Both the position numbers and the translations under genes were made by a program. Source: Polytrichum commune (lineage: Eukaryota > Streptophyta > Polytrichopsida > Polytrichales > Polytrichaceae). Taken from it: 64,000 nucleotides of DNA. Positions 4,239-62,800 of this stretch are shown piece by piece. Position 1 is the stretch's first letter. Each line of letters starts with the position of its first letter. The notes under the pieces were generated by a model. It was given only the letters and a program-made list of their open reading frames with translations. It was not told where the DNA came from and made no database searches. The stretch spans positions 39,824,527 through 39,888,526 of the forward strand of contig OX485808.1 in the NCBI GenBank assembly GCA_950295325.1, read 5' to 3'.

Positions 4239-11274
<7,036 letters not shown>

Positions 11275-49007: not shown

Positions 49008-52000
49008 TCTGGTACCGACAGTTGCAATGACCCACTGGGCTATTCCACTCAAACCTGGTCTTTTTTTCTCATGAAGACTAAATTGTTTGCTAAAAATAGC
49101 GTTGCAGTGTGCTGATTGACCTCCGATCAGGACAACTATATTTTTACTGCAGAGCTACTACAGACATTCACTTGATCTCGGAATCTCGACTTGCTGAGGG
49201 CTGGGTGATCGAAAAGTGGTTGAAGGTGATTTTTTGAACTGTGCAAAGAATTTTTTGTGTTTTATTTTCCCAATTTTTGAACGTGCATTTAGAACATTTT
49301 GACATAGGATGTTTAAACTTTATCGCACTTGGTATTTATGACTAGGATAAGGGGCTCACATTCATGTTGGTGCAAGAACATCAACATCTTGTTTCTTTTC
49401 TTATCTTTTCTCTATTACTAAAGAAGCAAGCATGAATAGAGTGCCTCTTCACCCATGGGTTGTTGTCACCTTTCAGTGGGGGCCAAGTGGGGGGCACTTA
49501 TGACTAAAATATTACTTAATGCCCTGAATTTTATGTTTTTAAACTCAATCACCCTTACTCAATGCCCTGAATTTTTCTTTGTTACAAAACTCATCATAGG
49601 GAGAAATATTGAAAACAAATTTTGCAAGTGGAATTGGACTTTTAGAGGGTCTAGATTTTGTCCTTGGTGACATGATACTCAATTTTAACATGCATCATTG
49701 CTCTTCTAGACATGAAATTTGGTAGTCGTACTTGAACACTGGCTGCAATGTTCTTTGACACACTAGAAGAAATCATGCCCAAATCAACCTTGTAGGGCAG
49801 TGTGTTCTCACTGCACACTGGCCCTGTGATAGTGGACCTGGCCAAGTGAAGCGCTTGGTGAGAGGGTGGTGTCACTTGTTTTAGTGACCTCCACCCTTGT
49901 GGGTGTTGCATACCACTCGATGGACATACTCATGGAGGGTGGATGTATTGGGTGCCAAAGTGCATTATTGCCAACCTAGTTGAGTACAGGGTGTGTATGA
50001 GGGTGGTAGTCAGGTATAATATGCTTACCCACATGCTAACTAATGCCAATTTGACATGCTTATTGCCAAACCCATGTATGCCACATCAACTGCTTGGTGG
50101 TTGTAGAAGGTGCCATTCGTTACCCATGCGTGGGTGACATTGATGGTGGGCATCAAGCGAGGGTGGGTGGCCTTGAGGATGGACAATGGGTGAGGGTGGG
50201 TAGATATCAAGTTGGGATGGGAACTAAAAAGATTGTAGTGACAACTTTTACCAACTTCAATTGTGTTATGAAACTAACATTTTTAAGTCAATGAAACCAA
50301 AAATTCACGTGATGTCAATCTATGCTTAGATTATGATAGCAGCATTCTCAAAACAACATGTTTTCTAAAGTAATCACACAGAAATCAAAGACACTATTCC
50401 TTGTGTCAACCACACAAATGTGGTCTAAAACTTATCCTTCAAAAATTTTGGGTTTGTAAGTCAACTTGAATGTAGGTCTTCAATTATAGATGCTCATGAT
50501 ACCGTACCTATATCAATGTCAACCCCCCGCTTTCTGGGAGGAGTTCACAAGATAATTATCTTATTGGCAGACTCATTCACGTTTTGTCAACACGAATGGG
50601 GTCTTCCCGTTTTGATATTTGGTCATCACCAGCTCCCAAGTCTACATATATATATGGGTTATGGTCAGCACTTGGGATGTGGTGGCGGCTTTACATGCAA
50701 TTTACATGTAGATATTGTAAAGCAGTACTGTAAGTTGTTTCTTCTTCTTCTTTACAAATGTGTCACCAAAACCAGGAAGTTCTTTTGTGGGGCCGGCCGG
50801 GTTGTCTGTTTGTAAAGGTAGCTTAAAGCTTAGCAGGAAGTACGCATCCGCATTTTTGTCTGTCCTTCTCGTACAGAGGCTTCATCCAGGGCAGATTGGA
50901 CTACTGTTGGAAGATTAGGGCCGGTTTACACCGTGGACCATGAAGTCGGACTCTAGATCTGGAAGATGGCCTTTTTCCATGGTCTGACTTCATGGTTTAA
51001 CTTCCAGGGTCCGATTTTTTAAGAAACCAATTTACAAAGTTTCTGGGCCCCTTAACAAGTGTAAATTGGATGTGGGTTCAAGAGGAATGACCATGCACCA
51101 AAAAGTGAATGTGCTGATTTCTTGAATATATGTCCAAAAAGGGCAATGTTGAAAGGGAAAAAAAAAGTGTGATTATTCTTTTGTCTTCTCTTGTCTTCAT
51201 CTTCTCTTCCTGAAAAAATTTCATTTAAAAATTCATAAAAATATTTCTTTGTCATGGGCCCTTGCCTTTTTCTACAAGAGCACATCTTCTGCCTCTCCCA
51301 CTGCAAAACATGTTGGACCATGTTAATGGATAATGTAGGTTGTAAAATATATCTTTTGGGGACCTGGAACTTCATGATCACTCTAACATGGTTCATGTTG
51401 TAAACAACCCCTCAGCGTGACTCAAGCATCTTACAACATGCAAATACATTGATAATGAAATAAATGAGTCGGGCAAAACCTTGGAAGTCATCTTCCCAAC
51501 AATAATAAGATACTTGTTGTTGACATTTGTGTCCTAGTTTAATCTTGCATGGTGTACACCGATATAAACAACTGGTTGCCACAAACACTATATTCGTTAA
51601 ATTGAGACTTTCTCTAGTCTCAAATTAATATATGGATCAAACAACATTCCGTGTTCCGAAACTATATTGAGAACAATCTCAAATATATTATATGTTCTAA
51701 TATCCCAAATCTATTATGTGTGGACATAAGCACATATGGTAGAGCACTGAACACCAACTTCATCAACAAAAACACTTTGGGTAGAGCACTCCAAACTAGT
51801 TTCACCCAAAAAACATATAAAATGATTTATATTATTAGCATGGTCAATAAAATATAGACATTGCAACATACAAAGTGCATGTAATAAATGCATATTTCTT
51901 CAATGGAAAATTTAGTCCCAAACTTAATAAAAAAATGAACTTCACAATTGTATTGAAATATAGTAAATGGATATTCAACCAACCCCAAACAATATAGCAT

Positions 52001-52114
52001 TCGCAAGTTCTACCCAAACTTTGCCCCAAGTTTGAGGAGCACACATATGAGTAATATATATTCATCGAATTACTGTTTACACTATAATCATGCTAACACA
52101 ATCCTACCAACTTC
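49008..52114. other. Intergenic, AT-rich, no gene seen
   Basis: Two near copies of CAATGCCCTGAATTTT lie at about 49520 and 49560. GAGGGTGGGT-type repeats occur at 50158-50205. At 50919 GGGCCGGTTTACACCGTGG, preceded by TTA, resembles the segment at 12766 and may be a Tourist-like terminal end; the opposite end is not certain. A minus-strand frame at 49651-49911 is open but unrecognised. Confidence 0.3.
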
Positions 52115-54942
52115 TCATTCAACGTGGGTTGCTTCTTCTGCGATCCGAGCAAGGTTGTCTTTTGCAAAAGTTATGTACTTTTGAGGGATGGACACTGATC
52201 CACTATGGTTTTTCCGTGGTTTCCATGCTATGAATATGGAATCTGTATCTACCCAAGATGGACCATGCTCAGAATCCACCTTCCACCGAAAGTTAGGGTT
52301 TGTATCCCAGCCTGTATAATGCCAAATCACATCTTCATTCCTTGCCGTCAGTCGGTAGTACTCCACTTGTATTTGTTAAAAATGAGGGCTGGAAGTTACA
52401 AAATTGGGTTTGGACAAAGCTCTTGCCACCCACACTGGCTTCGCATATGTCTCATCTCCAGGACGCAAAATGAGCATATAACCTTCATGACAATCCACTG
52501 CAATGCGGAAAGATGGTGGCGGACGACTACTAGCAGGCCCCACGTAATGGTCGTCCACATCAAACTCCTCTCAAACCTCTCCATTTCCCAAAAGACTAGC
52601 CTCCGAAGCTTGTACATCGACACGTGTTTGTGGCCAAAACCCATGCCTTAAAGTAAGAGGTGTATCTTGATGAAGGTTTGCCAAAGCGCCACGAACACGT
52701 GTCCAATATTGTATCCAACTTCCGTAACGAAGCCAACACAATCCACCAACATCCGCGACCCTCAAACTCTCCCAATATTGTATGAAGCCTGATATGCCTT
52801 TACAAATGTCCTCCAAATTCTTCATGGGTATTGGTTTGCAAGGCTTAGGCTCTCCGTCAGGCAACATCGTCCTTCCCTCCCCATCAACACGCCATACAAG
52901 GAGACCCTCCGGCGGGCTCCAGTCTTGTGACGTGCACAACAACTTGTATTGCATGGCGGGGACACCATCGTCACGCACGTAGAACCAAAATTGTTGTGCC
53001 TTCGTATGTCCGATCAATCGGTGAGCTCCGCTTCGAATATACGGTTCTATAAATGCCTTGAAGTCGGGGACCTCCTCGATCATATTTCACTTGGTGGCTC
53101 CGGCAACGAGTGCACGCATACATCTCTTCCATCCAAGACCGCTTCATATAGAGGTGTTGATCCCGAGTTTTCAAATAACAATCTTGATGAATAGGACGGC
53201 GGTTTCTCCAAATCACGTAAAAGCTTTGCAAATGACCCTATCGTGTGGTTAGAATCCGCCGGATACAAATCAAGAGCATAATGAGCATACTTCACATCAC
53301 CATGTCCATATGCAATCATTCCTGCAATGCGAACCCAATGATTTAGTATTCAACTATAATATAAAAAAATTCACATGGTGTACATCTATCGCCCCAAGCA
53401 CAAATCTAAAAGCACAAAATTGTGTTTAGGTAATGCAATGCAATTGTTTTCAGAATCACCTGTAACCGATACAGGAAGCTTAAAAAGGCTGTCCGTGGTT
53501 TTTATTCGATTTGCAAAACATGGTGAGGTTGTTTTGGCATGGTCCATTTTGTCATGGATGATTGTAAGGACCTCCAAAGGCCTAGAGATGGACAAAGCTC
53601 TATTTGTGTAGTAATCATTACGGTGTGCCTCTTGCATGTTCACATGCTTGAAATAGTTCATTTGATGTGCTGCAAAGGACTCTGTCCCCATCGTGTGTGC
53701 ATCTCGAAGGCGTTTCAACTTCTCGCATTTGGAACAACGGGCAAATTTGTCACCACGTCTTTTTGTAATGTATTCGCTAAAGTTCAATTTTTTGATTGCA
53801 CTCAGTTTTTTGATTGCACTCAGTTTCGACAACGAAATTGGATCCAACCCAGCCTTTTCGCCAACTGCGTTTACGTCCAACAATATGTCTTTCCATTTCG
53901 TGCCTGTAGGAAGAACCTTCTCCACAACCTTTTCGCCGGTTGCGAGTGTGCGTGTTTTGTGCGGCATTGCATCGGCAAGGGGGACAATGATGGTTGCCAG
54001 AGTGACTGTTGCTTGTCTCGTTGCTTCCCTTGGTTTCTTTAAGCCCGTGTTCCCATAGTGACGGGAACAGCGGCCTTCCTTGGCATACGCGGCTTGTCTA
54101 TAAAATTCCGCTTTCGACACACCGTGAATGGTGTACCATGCCGTACAACACACGTCTATACTCTCAAGGGTGATGACCTTGCGACCCGCTCCGTTCACAT
54201 GTATCGCCCTATGGACATCAAGTTTTTTAGTGGATCTTAGACGGAAATCTCCAAGCCACATTTCCTCGCGGATGGCCTTCAATTTATCCCTTGGGAACAA
54301 TTGGCAACAACGATGTACACAACAATCATTTGTGGTAACTTCTCTAATAGACTCCTCACAGAGCAACCTTTGACGTTTACACTCATTTGCAGACAGAGTA
54401 GGACGTGCCAATGTATCGTACTTCCGTAGGCCTTTGCGTGGCCGAATGTTTGCTTGGAGCTCCTGTTGGATTTGGATGTGTCGTCGCTCATGATCATGCA
54501 AGCTAACCCCCTCAATTGTCACATTCTTCAACGGCCACCTTCGCAACGAGAACCTATGAGTTGGATTCACTTCGGAATGTACGAGTGATCCCAATATAAC
54601 AACTCCAACGTCCTCGGTGCCAAGGGGGTTTTCATCAATGCAATCTTGTGGATGTGTGTTACGACAAATACCCTCCGCCACAGCAACTCCACTGTCATTA
54701 ACAAGTACCACATCCAAATTCACCCATGAAGCTCGTGAAAGCCCTGCACATTCCACTGTGGGGCAAAAAGGTGTGGATGGCGAAGGACCCCCCAAAGGAC
54801 CTTCATCTGCACTGTCATCAAAACTATCCTCCCCGACAATGTCTAGCTCATCCCCAGACGGAGATGAAGTGGTGCCCATGTAATCAGAGAAGGAATCACA
54901 TCTTCCCCCAACTCCCTCCATTGCGCCTACACATGTGCACAT
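52115..54942 (-). pseudogene. DUF7869-type (transposase-like) gene with core deleted
   Basis: Exon 1 (54942-53460) is an intact reading frame of about 494 codons. It ends in IIHDKMDHAKTTSPCFANRI and LPVSVTG, with a CxxC finger before it (FARCSKCEKLKRLR). After a 138-bp intron, exon 2 (from 53321) gives the GHGDVKYAHYALDLYPADSNH block. At about 53083 the frame jumps from LPEPPSE straight to MIEEVPDFKAF. The roughly 90-100 residue core expected between them (with Gln-x-Asp-Asn and a GHTHDDID-like motif) is missing and the frame shifts. The rest (53083-52115) stays in one frame but carries a TGA near 52570 and a TAA near 52378. In related plant proteins these parts are continuous. The function is unknown; the family is probably transposon-derived. 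Exon 1 also has an 18-bp tandem duplication at about 53785-53822. Confidence 0.75.
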
Positions 54943-55119
54943 GAAACCTCAAATAAAATGGACAAAATGTAAGGATACAAAAGAATCAATTGATGGAGAA
55001 GGCAAGACATAATGATCATTTGGGACAACGCGACCCAACACATGTGGAACACATCTACTATGAGATCTCCCAATATTGTGCATCAGTCCAAAAATGCCAC
55101 ACAACATAGTTTGGGAGCG
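54943..55119. other. 5' flank of the DUF7869 pseudogene
   Basis: A short spacer before the palindrome array, without a TATA box that I can place with confidence. Confidence 0.3.
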
Positions 55120-55894
55120 GGTTTGGGTCGACCAACTCAAACCTTGTACCATGATGCGTCCAGGTCCATTTACAATTCGTTCACGGAATGGGGTTTGGGT
55201 TTGGGTCAACCGACCCAAACTTTATAGGGTTAACCCACCCACAATGGAGTACGGGTTTGAGTCGGTCGACCCAAACCTTGTCAAGGTCATATTAAAACCT
55301 CTCACAGTTGGGCAAGGGGTTTGAGTCGACCGACCCGAACTTGATCAGCGTAAATCCACCCACAGGGGGTAGTGGTTTGGGTCGGTCGACCTAAACCTTA
55401 AAACATGATGCGTTTAGGCTAGTACTGAGTCCGTCTAACCCTTCTGAGCATATGAATTAAGGGCTATTAACAATTCGTTCGCGATGTGGAAAAAAGTTTG
55501 GGTCGACCGACCCAAACCTTCTCAAAGTCATATAAAAACCTTCCAATGTGGGTAGGGGTTTGGGTCGACCGACCCAAACCTCCTCAGGATCATACCCTAT
55601 CCTTGAACATTGGGGTGTGGGTTTGGGTCGACCGACCCAAACCTCATCAGGGTCATACCCTGTCCTCCAACAATGAGGTGGGGGTTTGGGTCGACCGACC
55701 CAAACCTCCTCAGGGTCATACCCTATCCTCGAACAATGGGGTGTGGGTTTGGGTCGACCGACCCAAACCTCCTCAGGGTCATACCGTACCCTCGAACAAT
55801 GGGGTGTGGGTTTGGGTCGACCGACCCAAACCTCCTCATCGTCGTACTCAATTCGCCCACAATTGGGTGTGGGCGAGGGTCGACGGACCCTAAA
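55120..55894. repeat. Array of 12 palindromic 24-mers, 63-bp period in its last half
   Basis: The unit is an 11-bp arm GGTTTGGGTCG, a two-base centre AC, and the exact complement of the arm. Copies begin at 55120, 55198, 55254, 55318, 55374, 55495, 55557, 55620, 55683, 55746, 55809 and (degenerate) 55871. The copies at 55557-55809 are exactly 63 bp apart and perfect. Their spacers are also alike (CCTCAGGGTCATACCCT, then CGAACAATGGGGTGTG). The copies at 55254 and 55374 have GT in the centre, so they lie in the opposite orientation. Open frames across the array follow from the period of 63 = 3 x 21. The array lies between the divergent DUF7869 pseudogene and the phosphatase gene. Confidence 0.92.
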
Positions 55895-57232
55895 TCACCG
55901 CAAAATCCGGCGTTTAATGCGGCGGAAATCGCAAGGTGGGTTGGCTTTTTGCTCATTGCAAAGTTCACAGTGGGGTTGCATGCTGTGGATAGCTGCTCAT
56001 GAACGGCAGCATGCACAAACCTTGAAGTACAGCTCCGACTGAGAGCTCTCCCTACGAATTCAGGAGTGTGAGAACAGCAAAAAAGACCGACTTTTGAGGG
56101 GTGCGCCCCTTTATACTCTCCACCTCCGCTTCCCCGACTTCCTCATTGGATGCCTTCACCGCCTAGTTTCCCGCCTACTTCTCTAGGTTATTTCAAACCT
56201 CCTGACAAAATCCCCCAGTTTTTGTTAATTAAAGAAAATGCGCATCTAACCTCAGCCGTCATCTGGGTTATCCCAGCCGTCATCTGGATACCCCAGCCGT
56301 CATCTGAGTTAGCGTCTGACTGTATTGACAGTGCGTATTGAAAGTAATGTGGATATTTAATCCGTTTTTCATTGTTTTGTGTGGTTATGACATGCACCAT
56401 GCACATATGTGAGGAAGGGTGGCGGCCACATTAATTTTTTTAAATGTCATGAGGAGAGAATGTTTGTGATAAGTGATTTAGAACAAAAACTTCTACAATG
56501 TCACCCTAATGCATCATATACATATTAAATGATGATATTGATCTACTTTAACTCAAACATTACGGTATGGCATTAACCAATATGTAGACAAAAGAAGTCT
56601 AAACATTGTGTAACGCCTTATGGTAAGAGTCACTAAATACAATAGTTAAAGTGGTTATGAAGATCCTCGCAAGGGGAATTATTAATTTTGAAATCAAATT
56701 ATGTCATGAAAAAGTTCATTTATTGTTCCAAATCTGAATTTGCAACAATGCAAGTGACAAGAGCTTTTATATATAATATGTTGTCATCCCTAAACCCTAA
56801 ACCCTACAATATTGTCCTCTTCTCTCGCATGCAAGTGTGGCAATGACGAATGTATGTGGACGTCGATAAGGGGATACTAACTACCAATGTCGTTTTTTAG
56901 TTCAATATTTCCATGCTAATTGAATCCATCCTCAAGTTCACTTCAAGCTTACTAATGTGTGTGAACAAAACATCCAAAGTTGAACCCTAAACCCTTATAA
57001 CATCCACAACATGAAATACGTATTGACTAAACCCTACACCAATTAGTATATCATGTTTAGACGTTCCAAATAACATATTCACATGATCAAGATTGTGTTC
57101 ACTATAACCTTCCTATTAGACTCTTCTTAATATACAAACAACATTTGTTATATCTTTCTCGGCAGCAGGGACGGTGGAGGCTTCCACATCGTCGAGACAT
57201 TACCAGGGCGAGGTAATACACTGAGCCCTCCC
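55895..57232. other. Intergenic, no gene seen
   Basis: A triplicated ~21-bp word (CCAGCCGTCATCTG...) lies at 56249-56305. Telomere-like CCCTAAACCCTAAACCCT is at 56788-56805. No supported gene. Confidence 0.4.
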
Positions 57233-57256
57233 AGTTTGGGTCGACCGACCCAAACT
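57233..57256. repeat. Solitary copy of the palindromic 24-mer
   Basis: Same arm-AC-arm sequence as the array 1.3 kb upstream, with A and T replacing the outermost G and C as in the copy at 55495. It is the only full copy seen outside the array and lies about 480 bp before the first supported exon of the phosphatase gene. Confidence 0.85.
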
Positions 57257-57709
57257 TCTTGGGTCATTGTCTTGTTTGCCTGGTCGTGTCCCCCTTGCTA
57301 GGAGGAAATGCATCCCCCCCCCTCCCCCTCTCATGCTCAACACTTGCCCCCCCTCCCCCCCCCAACGTGCCCCCCGCGATCCTTTTCGTCTCACCTGCAC
57401 TCGACTACGCTCGACCTTGGCGCGCGCAACCAATTTTGTAGATGTAGAATTAGGATAGTGTGAATGCCCTCGTTCACGGCGCCCCCCCCCCCCCCCCATC
57501 AAATTGTACATAGAGATTTGTAAAAATAAAATTATTATTTTTGGCGCCCATATGTTAGCATCCATGTCCCAATGTGTGTTGTTCCCCTTGTATGTTTTTG
57601 TTGCCACCAATGGTCCAATTCTTCTTATGTTTGCACAAAATTTCCGTTCTGCTTGAATTAAACATAGCATAACATAGTCCTCGCCGCCTTCTCTCGCTCG
57701 TCGCCGCAG
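57257..57709. other. C-tract-rich upstream region of the phosphatase gene
   Basis: Contains several long C tracts (57312-57330, 57346-57363 and 57483-57498) and a CT-rich run ending in GCCGCAG at 57703-57709. That run is a good splice acceptor for the exon that follows. The upstream exon with the start codon is not identified. Confidence 0.35.
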
Positions 57710-58522
57710 GGTTCAGAGCATAGCGTCGCGGCTCCCCACCGGTCCTCCCCGAGGAGCGTGGAGGACAGCGTGGTGGTCCCCCCGATTTTGCCCTCGCCAC
57801 CTTCGCCTCCCAAGACCCGGTTCCTCGTGCTAGACCTCAACGGGGTCCTTGTCCAGTGCGTGCATTGTCCGAGGGTCCCAACGGTCCCTTTCTGCAAGCC
57901 CGAGGACGCCAACTACGATGGTCCCCCCGCGTACATCAAAAGCAAGCTAGTGTACCTCCGCCCGTGGCTTCGGCGCTTCCTGCAGGTCGCCCTATCCAAA
58001 TGGTGGGTGATCGTTTGGAGCTCCATGAAGTCCGAGAACACCCAGGCCGTCGTGGAGTTCATCTTCAAGGGACTCCAACCCCCGTGCTTGGTCCTAGGAC
58101 AGGATTCTTGTAAAACATTATACACCCCCAAGGGCAGGGTTGTGAAGAAGCCCAACAACCCCGCCGTAAACCAATTTCTTAATGTCTTGAAGCCAGTCGT
58201 ATGGGACCAGTGTCCAACCATGGTCGGCTGTCCCTACGACGTTCGCCCCACCCGTGACAACACGTTGATGGTGGACGACAGCGCTTCCAAAAACATTTTG
58301 AACCCGACCTCGAACTTCATAGTTTGCCCCACGTGGACGGTCGAGAAGGTCCGAGACCGCTTTTTGTTAGACCTACTTAAGTACATTCAAACGCTCGTGG
58401 GGAGAGGACTACCCGTGCCCCGGTTCCTTAGTTGTAATCTGATAGGGGAAAGATGCATGGATCCGAAGAACTATATGTACAAAGAGTTGTACGCTCACGC
58501 GAAATATAATAAACTCATTTGA
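57710..58522 (+). CDS. HAD-superfamily FCP1/NIF-like phosphatase domain, 5' end not found
   Basis: The frame is open from an acceptor (GCCGCAG) at 57709. No ATG lies before the domain, so an upstream exon is needed. The HAD motifs are FLVLDLNGVLV (motif I, nucleophile Asp at about residue 42), VIVWSSM (motif II Ser) and MVDDSASKN (motif IV Asp-Asp). The family normally has Asp-x-Asp in motif I; here the second acidic residue is Asn, so classical phosphatase chemistry may be weak or altered. The frame ends YMYKELYAHAKYNKLI, then TGA. A following exon-like block has no proper donor before this stop, so either this is the true end or the gene is interrupted here. FCP1/NIF-type enzymes usually act on phospho-Ser in nuclear proteins. 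GC-rich compared with its flanks. Confidence 0.65.
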   Translation, partial: GSEHSVAAPHRSSPRSVEDSVVVPPILPSPPSPPKTRFLVLDLNGVLVQCVHCPRVPTVPFCKPEDANYDGPPAYIKSKLVYLRPWLRRFLQVALSKWWVIVWSSMKSENTQAVVEFIFKGLQPPCLVLGQDSCKTLYTPKGRVVKKPNNPAVNQFLNVLKPVVWDQCPTMVGCPYDVRPTRDNTLMVDDSASKNILNPTSNFIVCPTWTVEKVRDRFLLDLLKYIQTLVGRGLPVPRFLSCNLIGERCMDPKNYMYKELYAHAKYNKLI

Positions 58523-58631
58523 GATACTACATGGTGTGCCATTGTGTGTGATATATTATGCCTCAATTGTATATCGATTTTCACATGCTCCCCCTCCCCT
58601 TGGGTTTTGTTTGTTTTAATTTTGCCATCAG

Positions 58632-59438
58632 CGTTTGGAGCCCTCGATTGAGATCGTCAACGAATCAAACTTGGGGAGCTTCTTCTACGAGACCGTCTAC
58701 GATGCCGCATCCACCATCGACTACTCCAAGGAGCCTATTGACGCCGGCGTCGTCGATAGCCCCCCACCCAAGCAAATCTTCCGGCCATCTCCTTCCCCGT
58801 CACCGCTCAAGGGCATAAATCGCAAATGCGTCCGGACGTCCCCCTCTCGGCCCGGCGGCAGTAGTACACCTCAACGGCGGTTGCGGATGGACGCTCGGCC
58901 TACGAAGAGTGGCACCCTTCCTATTCCTTTGCGGGACGCATTGCCCCTCCTCGCCAACTCCGACGGGAACGCCCCCGGTGACAAGGTGAACCCCCCCCCC
59001 CCCCCCAATACATGGTTAACCGCGCATTACAATCATCCGGCACTTAAAAAATGAACGTGTGACACGTTTGGGTCTTCCTCCCTAAACTAACACGTGTGTT
59101 CTTGCATTCACGCGTTGCAGGTTGCTCCCACCCGTAAACCTATGCGGGCTACTACGTCCGTCGAGTTGGAGCGTTTCTACTCCATGACCAGAAATGCAAG
59201 ACAGTCCACTTCATCGTATTCGAATTCTTCGTCGTATAATTCGGGCGGCCGACGGAATCCAAAGTTAGTTATTGATGGCGGTCACCCCAAGAATGGCTAT
59301 AGTCGCGGGGCGGAGATTTTCAGGAATGTTGAAGCAATGCGAGCAAAAGAAGCCACAGCAAAAGAAAAAAAGGCAAAAGAAAAAAAGGCAAAAGAAAAAA
59401 TTGCAAAAGAGAAAGAGGCAGTCTCCGAGGCTAGATAG
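58632..59438 (+). CDS. Two spliced exons, Pro/Ser-rich protein with Lys-Glu-Ala repeat tail
   Basis: Exon 58632-58985 follows a CAG acceptor and reads RLEPSIEIVNESNLGSFFYE, then a Pro/Ser-rich part. It joins in phase 0 to 59121-59438 (VAPTRKPMRATTSVELERFY and on), ending in AKEKK repeats coded by a 15-bp repeating unit and a stop at 59438. The intron (58986-59120) contains a C tract right after its donor. I recognise no domain. It lies 110 bp after the stop of the HAD frame and was probably its C-terminal part, but no intact donor joins the two. The pair may be one broken gene, or this may be a separate gene without a visible start codon. Confidence 0.4.
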
Positions 59439-59559
59439 GCCATAGTAGGCGTAGGGTTTTGAGGGCATAGGCAACATCATTTTGGGTCGCACTATCCAAT
59501 GGATGTGTGGTGTTAGCATGCTATGCATTTTACATGCCATAATTTGTATGTTTTTTTTG

Positions 59560-59835
59560 CAATAATATAAGTGTCACATGATTTCCCCTTCAATATGGTC
59601 TAAGGTTTGGATTGCCCTACCTAAACCATCACAAATATGAGTTTGGAATATTTTGTATGTTATATTATATTGGTTCACATATTTTCCCTTCAATATGATC
59701 TATGGTTTGGATTGCCCTACCTAAACCATATTCATACAAGTTTTTGTGCGATAATATGAATGTTTTAAGATTTCCCCTTCAACTTGGCCTAAGGTTTGGA
59801 TTGCCCACCCTAAACAATCCCAAATATGAGTTATT
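59560..59835. repeat. Three copies of a ~90-100 bp repeat
   Basis: The words TTTCCCCTTCAA-(T/C)-(A/T)TGG, TAAGGTTTGGATTGCCC and CTAAACCATC/CAAATATGAG recur in order at about 59582, 59683 and 59771. The repeats lie just 3' of the phosphatase locus and have no coding capacity. Confidence 0.65.
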
Positions 59836-62800
59836 AATGGGGTTCTTGTTCTAAACACCCGCTTCAAAGTGTTCGCATCTTACAACTTTCTCCAATATGT
59901 GTTCCATTTATCCTTGTTCTTATTTCTGTGAATGTCTCAAAATGCCCAAAAAGTCTCAATTTAACGAATATAGTGTTCACATGCTAATTTCTCTATATTT
60001 CACACTATTTTAAATAATTGGCACCACATTAACAAAATGCATAAATTGTTCTTTTACTATGGTTGTTATGTGGATATATAAACAAGTTAAAGTAACTTAT
60101 GTGATTTGGTTTTGACCTAAGGCAATTTGCGTGGGTAAAGAGGAAAGATATTCACGAAGGCAACCTAATTGTACATGTCAGTGTAGGTCAACCTAATTTA
60201 ATTGGTGAAATTGAAGTCCGATTGCAGCTAATCAAAATTGGTTGCCATGAAAGCAAATAAAATGGGGAATCAAACATCACAATTTCATACCATCCTATAT
60301 CATACCCGTTCTCCGTTGTCAAAATTATACCATCTGGACATGTGGGGGTTATAGGACCTTGCCCCCAAGGTAGCAACGCGTGTATAATAAGCAAGGGTCA
60401 TTGGCAAAATAAGGCTTTGACAATTTATAATAAGTTCATGATAAAGCATGAAATTTCTATAATAAGATTATTAATTACAAATAAGGTATAATACAACATA
60501 CTAAGATGTAATAAAGAATATTTCTATTTTATAAGATATGTGCAAACCTTTATTATATTCTATGCCCCATGCATAATGAAATTCCTTAATTCTTTGTTAT
60601 TATCATTGATCACTTGCCCAAGGTAAATACAGAGACAACTATGTCAAATAAGATACCATTATATGAACATCTTTCTGAGCTCTTTACAACAATGCTAAAT
60701 TCATTGAGAGGATAATATTAGGTGTTAGGGTTGGGCATCACCCAACAACTCACCCTAATCCATATCCTTGTGCAAGTGTGCCAAGCCTTAGTTGTATGCA
60801 AATAGTGGAATGAATACCACCCATACATATATAACTCATCAAAGGCCATTTAATGTGGACCACTTGAACCTTTGTTGTGTGGCCAAATAGGGCAACAATG
60901 TGTTTATTTATAAGTAAACAGGGTGACACCTTTAATTAAGCAAGTTGGGTCAAGTTAAGTGTCGGTTTTCAATGGGAAGCAATGAATAGTACCAAGACTC
61001 ACAATTGTTCACTTTGTAAGAACCTCCCAAATAAAAAGGGCATAATTCCCGTCAAATTCCCAAGCTCCATGGTGCATCAGCCTACAATTGATTAAACCAG
61101 ATTAACCTCATCTACCTTATGACAAATAGTTGCCAAAGTTTCATGCTTGTATAGTATCATAAATAACCATAAAATAAAATTTGGTAGGGGGAATAGTAGA
61201 GACCTCAAAGAATTGGATCATTTCATTGGTCCCTAGGCAACTTCGTATGTGCATTGATGCACTCATCCTCAATTTAGATTGGACTAGCTCTCAAATCGGA
61301 GTAATCTTATGTGGGTCTTGAGTGGCTCGATTCCCATGTTCTCCAACTCCTTCAAACCATACTTACGCAACGAAACTTGTCTTGCATTAGCAAATATAAG
61401 ATGCAGCATCAACAAAACTTGGATTGGAAGTCCGACCTCTCTTGATTTGGTTATGATTATGGAAAGTGCATGTAAATGAAATTACACGTAGATTCCTCCA
61501 ATCATGTTAACAACTGAATCTAGAATGATTGATAAATTTTAGAGGATCCACTTTCAGATCTAACTTAACCACACACCAGTCAAATATAAATGTTTGATTA
61601 AATATGAATAACCAAGTAAGACCCGCTTACCTCAATGGATTTCATAGCGAGGACGTTGTGCTATAACGACGGTGCTATCACCAAACTCAGCACTTTTATA
61701 ACACACAAGCTCTAACATCGACACACATGCAGATTTTTAAAGAATTGATTTCAGACATCAATGGAGCACCACTCTATATATATATAGTATTTCGGACACA
61801 AAAGTCATACTAATTCCCATTATTTAAAGCTCAACTATGTAGCACCACGTCAACTTGCAGAACATAAGTCTGAAGGCCACAAATTCAATGGGACGAAGTA
61901 ACTAAAATATAACTGGACTCAAGTGAGAATGTCTATTGACTTAGTTACAGAAGGTTGCATTGACTATCCTCTTGGGCTTGGTGTGCCACTGGAGTTGGTT
62001 TTGCCTTAGAAATTAAGCCTGAAACCTCATCACGTGCTTTGCATATTCAATGAATTTGTGGTTGACAACCGGCAAGAGGGGAGTGAGAATTTTCTCGCTA
62101 AATTAACATATTCCACAATACTATACGCCACAGCAATGATCTATAAGAGGTTGAAATTTGAAATACAATTCTACAGTCACTACAAGCATATGAGTTCTAG
62201 GCAATCGACCTACATCACTGGAAACTTGTCCTATGTTACTAGAAATTTTGAAAATCTAGTATGATGGTAAATTTGCATTGTTCTTTCAGTGATGTGGGAC
62301 AATTGCTTAGGACTCGTATGCTAGTAGTGAGTGTGTTTTTGCATGGGTAAACGTAAGTGAATTGTTTTCATTGCATGGATGTGTAGATAGTTGGTGATTG
62401 TTTGCACAAGTGCCATAAAAATCTCTTCTTAAATTGTGTTCAGATAAACTGTAGTAATCGTGTGTTGTTGTTGTTGTGATGGAAGCCCTAATTGTGTGAG
62501 TTGTTGCTCTCAACAATACAACATGCACATGGCTCGGGAAGCCTACCTGAATTTGTGCATGGATGATGGCCATTTTCTGGTTGTGGGATGCTCATGTGTT
62601 TAGCCCTTTCGATCATAACACCAACTAATGTTAGACATGTCCTTAAAAAAAGCATATATCATATCTTTGTTTTAAGCCATAATAGAATGCAAGCATAGTA
62701 AAGTGGACCAGGAAAGTGCACTGGTATACTAAAACCATAATTTCTTTGATCAAACACATAAAAGAAATAACAAAATATAGTTAAATTTGGAGTTTATTTT

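Follow-up and report, generated by a model that had tools for sequence, protein, structure and literature searches.

The window analysed here is a stretch of 64,000 nucleotides from Polytrichum commune (C6:39824527-39888526), and all comparisons were made inside this one genome, which was searched over 408 Mb in 64 contigs. In the window, the remains of a gene for a DUF7869 protein on the reverse strand (52118-54926) and a phosphatase exon on the forward strand (57710-58522) stand on either side of an array of short palindromes. By palindrome and mismatch site searches we found eleven units at 55121-55831, with starts from 55121 to 55810, and a twelfth at 57234-57255, in a predicted intron (57213-57709) before the phosphatase exon. 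This agrees with the first-pass annotation of the sequence, which had counted eleven to twelve copies. Also borne out were the spacing of the last six copies by 62-63 bp (starts at 55496, 55558, 55621, 55684, 55747 and 55810, with steps of 62, 63, 63, 63 and 63 bp) and the flipped orientation of the centre in two copies, at 55255 and 55375. The unit had been described as a 24-mer with 11-bp arms; this form is exact in five copies (from 55557, 55620, 55683, 55746 and 55809), the eleventh pair is local, and arms of 10 bp are common to the 30 arrays that we compared. The common unit is thus 10+2+10, referred to as word A: GTTTGGGTCG-NN-CGACCCAAAC, in which the arms are kept and the centre and spacers are free.

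Genome-wide, the 22-mer palindrome gave 12,826 forward matches at up to three mismatches in 408 Mb, with a single match for the reversed-pattern control, and perfect arms with any centre were found at 9,231 sites (control 0). The palindrome array is real and far above chance.

Sequence comparison assigns both genes flanking the array to one DNA transposon, termed family 1. Sharp ends were obtained from the flanks of four copies and carry a 28-bp terminal inverted repeat next to target duplications of TATA, TAAT, GTAA and CACA. A matching 4-bp duplication was present in 8 of 8 further copies, taken from the first terminal-repeat places listed, which brings the total to 12 of 12 examined. Genome-wide, the terminal inverted repeat itself is matched 1,029 times in forward and 1,031 times in reverse orientation (up to three mismatches; control 0). 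The combination of short terminal inverted repeats and 4-bp target duplications resembles Sola2 DNA transposons (PMC3627910), a likeness of ends and duplications; unlike in Sola2, the duplications are not all composed of A and T (CACA, ATGT).

The window copy of family 1 is internally deleted and measures 8,394 bp (51584-59977), its ends being defined by comparison with three other copies. It is bounded by perfect 28-bp inverted repeats at 51584-51611 (forward strand) and 59950-59977 (reverse strand), the left one identical to the reverse complement of the right, and by CACA duplications at 51580-51583 and 59978-59981. A full copy of 16.7 kb lies at C1:10973499-10990205 (loci L004, L010, L002 and L005). 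Compared with this C1 copy, 7,923 bp are missing from the window copy at 57160/57161, a deletion that brought the transposon's outer genes close to each other; in other copies the left-hand frame and the phosphatase are divergent and about 10-11 kb apart. The array had been placed between two divergent loci and a lone palindrome before the phosphatase. Both positions hold, yet the array is not a lone one, its neighbours are genes of one DNA transposon, and the palindrome at 57234-57255 stands near the array because of the deletion. At least 83 scored matches were obtained for the left-hand open frame and at least 137 genome matches for the phosphatase, both counts being lower bounds.

The DUF7869 gene of the window was recognized by blastn, by tblastn of an intact copy and by the Pfam PF25273 match of that copy (E 7.6e-39 in L004). 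We infer that its product is the transposase. The window copy lacks about 0.28 kb of the DUF7869 exon: residues 89-181 of 203 are missing at about 53085, and the flanking pieces matched in different frames. The array itself is housed by the predicted 5'-leader intron of this gene (54927-56020, reverse strand; acceptor GTGTAG/GCGCAATGG, donor CAAG/GTTTGT), and a TATA-like box was read at 56110-56115 on the same strand. On the other side, the phosphatase exon, which includes the stop codon, belongs to the second gene of the transposon and matches Pfam NIF (E 1.5e-13). The earlier association of the array with a DUF7869 and a HAD-like phosphatase gene is supported. Exons of the window copy share 94-97% identity with those of the C1 copy, and the leader-intron array about 74%. 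A viral origin was considered and rejected: neither exon 1 of the second gene nor the DUF7869 exon of family 1 has relatives in viral contigs.

Fourteen loci were sampled solely for holding the palindrome; they come from the first matches listed and all lie on contig C1. Seven of them contain family 1 exons and six represent a second transposon family (family 2), while one (L017) resembles family 1 by DNA alone, at about 69%; by protein or close DNA search 13 of the 14 match exons or DNA of the two families. A satellite without association with particular genes, the outcome that the first-pass annotation had set against its own reading, was not seen in this sample. L027, a neighbour of L017, holds six further palindromes and no matched exon.

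We then determined where the palindromes lie within the genes. In the full C1 copy all 35 sites with up to three mismatches are located in predicted introns of both divergent genes or in coding exon 3. The predicted 5'-leader intron of the DUF7869 gene contains 17 sites. Of the sites in the second gene, 6 fall in its predicted 5'-leader intron and 4 and 5 in introns 1 and 2, respectively; coding exon 3 has 2, and intron 3, ahead of the phosphatase, has 1. A placement in introns only is accordingly wrong in detail. Within the 2.3 kb between the two TATA-like boxes no site with up to three mismatches was found. A few degenerate sites (four or five mismatches) occur near the ends of the full copy. 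Splice-like sites of predicted introns 1 and 2 are kept in L002, L025 and L026, and the number of sites in intron 2 varies from two (L001) to five (L002) and seven (L003). In the window, four degenerate words with 4-5 mismatches are spaced by 125, 100 and 89 bp at 59480-59815, near the right end; they are perhaps decayed sites.

Array periods vary as well: 32/39, 45, 36 and 55-77 bp were observed in the full C1 copy and 57, 35, 78 and 80 bp elsewhere. It had been suggested that the last six copies of the array are set six turns of B-DNA apart and would face the same side of the helix. The 63-bp steps of the window fit, but helical phasing as a general feature was rejected, as periods of 32, 36, 45, 57, 78 and 80 bp differ in phase modulo 10.5 bp, mean phases, taken for 16 arrays, range between about 0 and 7 bp, and pooling of 45 distinct array steps gave R = 0.25 in a phase test modulo 10.5 bp.

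Conservation was assessed in 30 hand-picked arrays with 178 sites, leaving out sites with more than three mismatches (including those at window positions 59066 and 59480-59815) and many near-duplicate arrays, for example L003, L012, L019, L022 and L029; a set of 301 sites includes overlaps between L015 and L026 and between L016 and L026. Between arrays, identity is 0.88-1.00 for arm bases and 0.34 and 0.36 for the two centre positions, at which ten dinucleotides were seen. Flank columns range from 0.24 to 0.42, with one at 0.55, and the bases just outside the arms reach 0.35 and 0.39. Since sites were picked by arm match, some of the arm identity follows from the selection itself, whereas the sharp edges and the free centre do not. 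When sites of the same array were compared, the arms resembled one another more closely than the spacers did in 8 of 9 arrays; in the ninth (4 sites, 23 spacer positions) the spacer is identical. The arms are also kept where they are translated. The two sites of coding exon 3 read FGSTDPN and FGSPDPN, and their arm columns are invariant in 40 of 40 cases compared with 117 of 194 other coding columns (Fisher p = 3.5e-8, which is indicative only because related copies are not independent), with 1 of 4 centre columns invariant. These counts rest on 6 distinct copies from three subfamilies in 7 rows, L026 and L015 being the same place. Fixed arms around a free centre are as expected for the site of a dimer, which is how the dyad had first been interpreted.

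A related transposon, family C, was found at three loci (L031, L035 and L036), and its ends were located. Depending on the segment, its DUF7869 protein (Pfam PF25273 with E 2.3e-46 in L031) shares 34-54% identity with the family 1 protein; for the phosphatase the value is 32% (E 1e-24). Exon 2 of the second gene shows 28.6% identity over 203 residues (E 6e-19). Exon 1 gave no significant tblastn match to family 1; it can be aligned along its length, with NGQH opposite DGQH and with corresponding exon ends. At these three loci word A has no site with up to five mismatches. Family C instead carries word C, CCCACGGGTG-NN-CACCCGTGGG, with 988 genome matches at up to one mismatch and none for the control. 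Word C occurs both ahead of and within the DUF7869 gene (L031, L036). In the second gene of L035 it precedes exon 1 and recurs in introns 1 and 2, in coding exon 3 and in the intron that follows. Two more sites follow the phosphatase frame of family C. A further DUF7869 family (L032, L034), with 38-41% identity in the domain, has arrays of a 59-bp unit (L032:3561-7850, L034:6300-6965) that contain the near-palindrome GTGRGGCATATGCCYCAC, with 208 exact genome matches (control 0).

Family 2 carries word A at steps of 31-34 bp (L013, L014, L023, L024, L029 and L030). The presumed transposase of this family does not match the DUF7869 protein; the only hit obtained for it is a weak SWIM match (E 0.076). 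Word A is located between two exons of this presumed transposase (L023:1756-1937) and ahead of the second gene (L023:7111-7488, L014:1314-1495). When spliced from L014 and L021, with one stop in the copy, this gene combines a DGNHR motif, ParB-like by eye, with a methyltransferase domain; it matches PHROG 67 (E 3.2e-6) and Pfam N6_N4_Mtase at E 9.4e-5 and 22.9 bits, below the cut-off of 26.7. In its relative L033, which aligns in four matching pieces spanning most of the gene, N6_N4_Mtase scores 32.4 bits, above the cut-off. L033:1322-4457 (C1:9.66 Mb) is a ParB-like plus N4/N6 DNA methyltransferase gene with an open frame of 577 aa on a large contig. A diverged relative of the methyltransferase gene, 26-29% identical in three pieces, lies at L005:4667-9823, just beyond the right end of the C1 copy. 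The idea that families 1 and 2 have homologous second genes was dropped, as hhalign, blastp and hmmsearch found no significant similarity; reading family-1 exon 2 as a methyltransferase is by eye and unproven. Family 2 has a second palindrome, CCCTGTGCGT-TA-ACGCACAGGG, with 959 genome matches at up to one mismatch and a control of 0. It is found at L013:2547-2890, L014:23-480 and L023:5160-6302 in steps of about 64 bp, mostly upstream of the TATA-like box of the second gene.

We propose that the palindromes are putative binding sites for a protein that the transposon encodes and that recognizes its DNA sequence specifically as a dimer. The sites would be strung along the transcribed parts of its two genes, mainly in introns, and multiplied by tandem duplication. 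Protein and sites would co-evolve, leaving a related family with another word in the same 10+2+10 layout, and the putative binder would keep the genes of the transposon free of silencing, as VANC does for VANDAL. The dyad with its free centre, the placement in the transposon's own genes, the conservation within coding sequence and the other word in a homologous transposon are together the trace expected of co-evolution between a dimeric protein and its sites. Taken as a whole, with anti-silencing as the most likely outcome of binding, we regard this reading as probable, with room for considerable doubt. The ligand would be a protein of the transposon itself, and the product of the second gene is the most likely binder, because a second gene is present in each of families 1, C and 2; the DUF7869 protein is a less likely candidate. 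Against a transposon-specific binder stands the fact that word A also occurs in family 2, with no significant similarity between the second genes of this family and family 1. The word is thus not strictly private. A host protein is a less likely ligand.

We consider anti-silencing most likely because VANC is a published case with the same anatomy. VANC21 binds a 9-bp motif that is tandemly repeated upstream of VANA21 and within introns of VANC21 and VANB21, the targets of VANC6 carry other motifs, and the unrelated transposon AT9TSD1 shares one motif (PMC5735166, PMC10398659). The likeness comprises a short motif in dynamic tandem repeats within introns (here predicted) of the element's own genes, different motifs in related families (here word A in family 1 and word C in family C) and a motif shared with an unrelated transposon (AT9TSD1 there, family 2 here). 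In the same reports the VANC21 motif has 9 bp, is arrayed in one orientation and is not described as palindromic, while the site found here has 22 bp, a dyad and a free centre. VANDAL21 also has motifs upstream of VANA21 (same reports), whereas here the intergenic stretch of the full copy is without sites and the genes are others; the likeness is one of anatomy. In another respect the proposed arrangement recalls maize Spm. Its protein TnpA binds repeated short motifs and counters methylation; the Spm sites are subterminal, 12 bp long and not palindromic, unlike those described here.

The foremost alternative is that the palindromes are binding sites of the transposase for excision or integration, like the internal or subterminal motifs of some plant transposons. 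Every array-bearing transposon examined has a presumed transposase gene, DUF7869 relatives also have palindromes, and some degenerate sites (4-5 mismatches) lie near the right end. The first-pass annotation had pointed in this direction by recalling transposase sites near transposon ends. The sites of the full copy with up to three mismatches are, however, internal and within genes, and word A recurs in family 2, with its unrelated presumed transposase, and is absent from the DUF7869 relative. We therefore judge transposase sites to be unlikely. Somewhat less credit is given to the idea that several transposons recruited a host transcription factor, for which the palindromes would be sites. 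The presence of word A in two transposons with unrelated presumed transposases would fit, but a single host factor does not explain why a homologous transposon of the same genome has another word at corresponding places.

An equally improbable explanation places the action in RNA, with hairpins in intron pre-mRNA serving splicing, export or as a source of small RNA. Most sites are in predicted introns or transcribed leaders, and the word is able to fold as a hairpin. Arm changes, counted once per array, are strand-symmetric (15 G>A, 14 C>T), and none of 66 single-arm changes forms a compensated pair, which favors a site in double-stranded DNA over an RNA hairpin. In a small test, transitions that keep a G-U pair were no commoner than those that break it (16 versus 17). 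By these sequence counts a hairpin role is unlikely. Least probable of all are selfish or neutral satellite-like repeats that accumulate where the element tolerates them, as their tandem form, quickly changing number and location in introns and a disordered coding stretch would allow, since the arms are kept while centre and spacers drift, coding sequence included, the 2.3-kb intergenic stretch is free of sites, and none of the 14 sampled loci is clearly outside a transposon.

As to the nature of the putative transposon-encoded binder, a ParB-like reading was examined. Family 2, with its DGNHR motif joined to a methyltransferase domain and its palindromic sites, resembles ParB-parS and bacterial ParB-methylase fusions; the paper on these characterizes ParB-like nucleases as largely sequence nonspecific (PMC5512222). 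Unlike in ParB-parS systems, the second genes of families 1, 2 and C have no Pfam ParB_N match, and the DGQH/NGQH/DGNHR motif was recognized by eye alone. hhalign gave no ParB support for the second genes of families 1 and C, which also have no significant domain match in Pfam, NCBIfam, PHROGs or PDB. It is conceivable, and to us doubtful, that several families, some with unrelated transposases, carry a ParB-like accessory protein (methyltransferase-fused in one) together with 10+2+10 palindromes along their genes. This would be a eukaryotic self-marking system built from bacterial-type parts; one lineage would have rewritten protein and sites jointly, and in another they would be shared between lineages. 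A genome search with PF02195 (ParB_N) returned four matches, all on small contigs. ParB_N and methyltransferase matches were noted on the small contigs C10, C12 and C23, perhaps bacterial contamination or organelle.

In a limited literature search we found no paper on DUF7869 and none on the Polytrichum genome assembly, chromosome and transposable elements, and no recognized description of such a palindrome-array transposon system. To our knowledge, sequence-specific anti-silencing by transposons is known mainly from VANDAL of Arabidopsis. Should the same strategy operate in this genome, where the genes are others and the site is a dyad, it would have had more than one origin. The pair of families 1 and C represents a natural experiment, with homologous genes, corresponding introns and two words, and makes a change of protein target in step with dozens of sites directly testable.

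Further observations were made beside the transposon. Element copies occur in inverted pairs about 77 kb apart and in repeats about 84 kb apart, at C1:26479411-26582232 and C3:10599013-10777719, which resembles segmental duplication. The window additionally contains a subtilase with an fn3_6 domain and TTTAGGG-like repeats, both of which point to a plant, and, outside the transposon at 9242-9911, a tandem repeat with 2.8 copies of a 244-bp unit.
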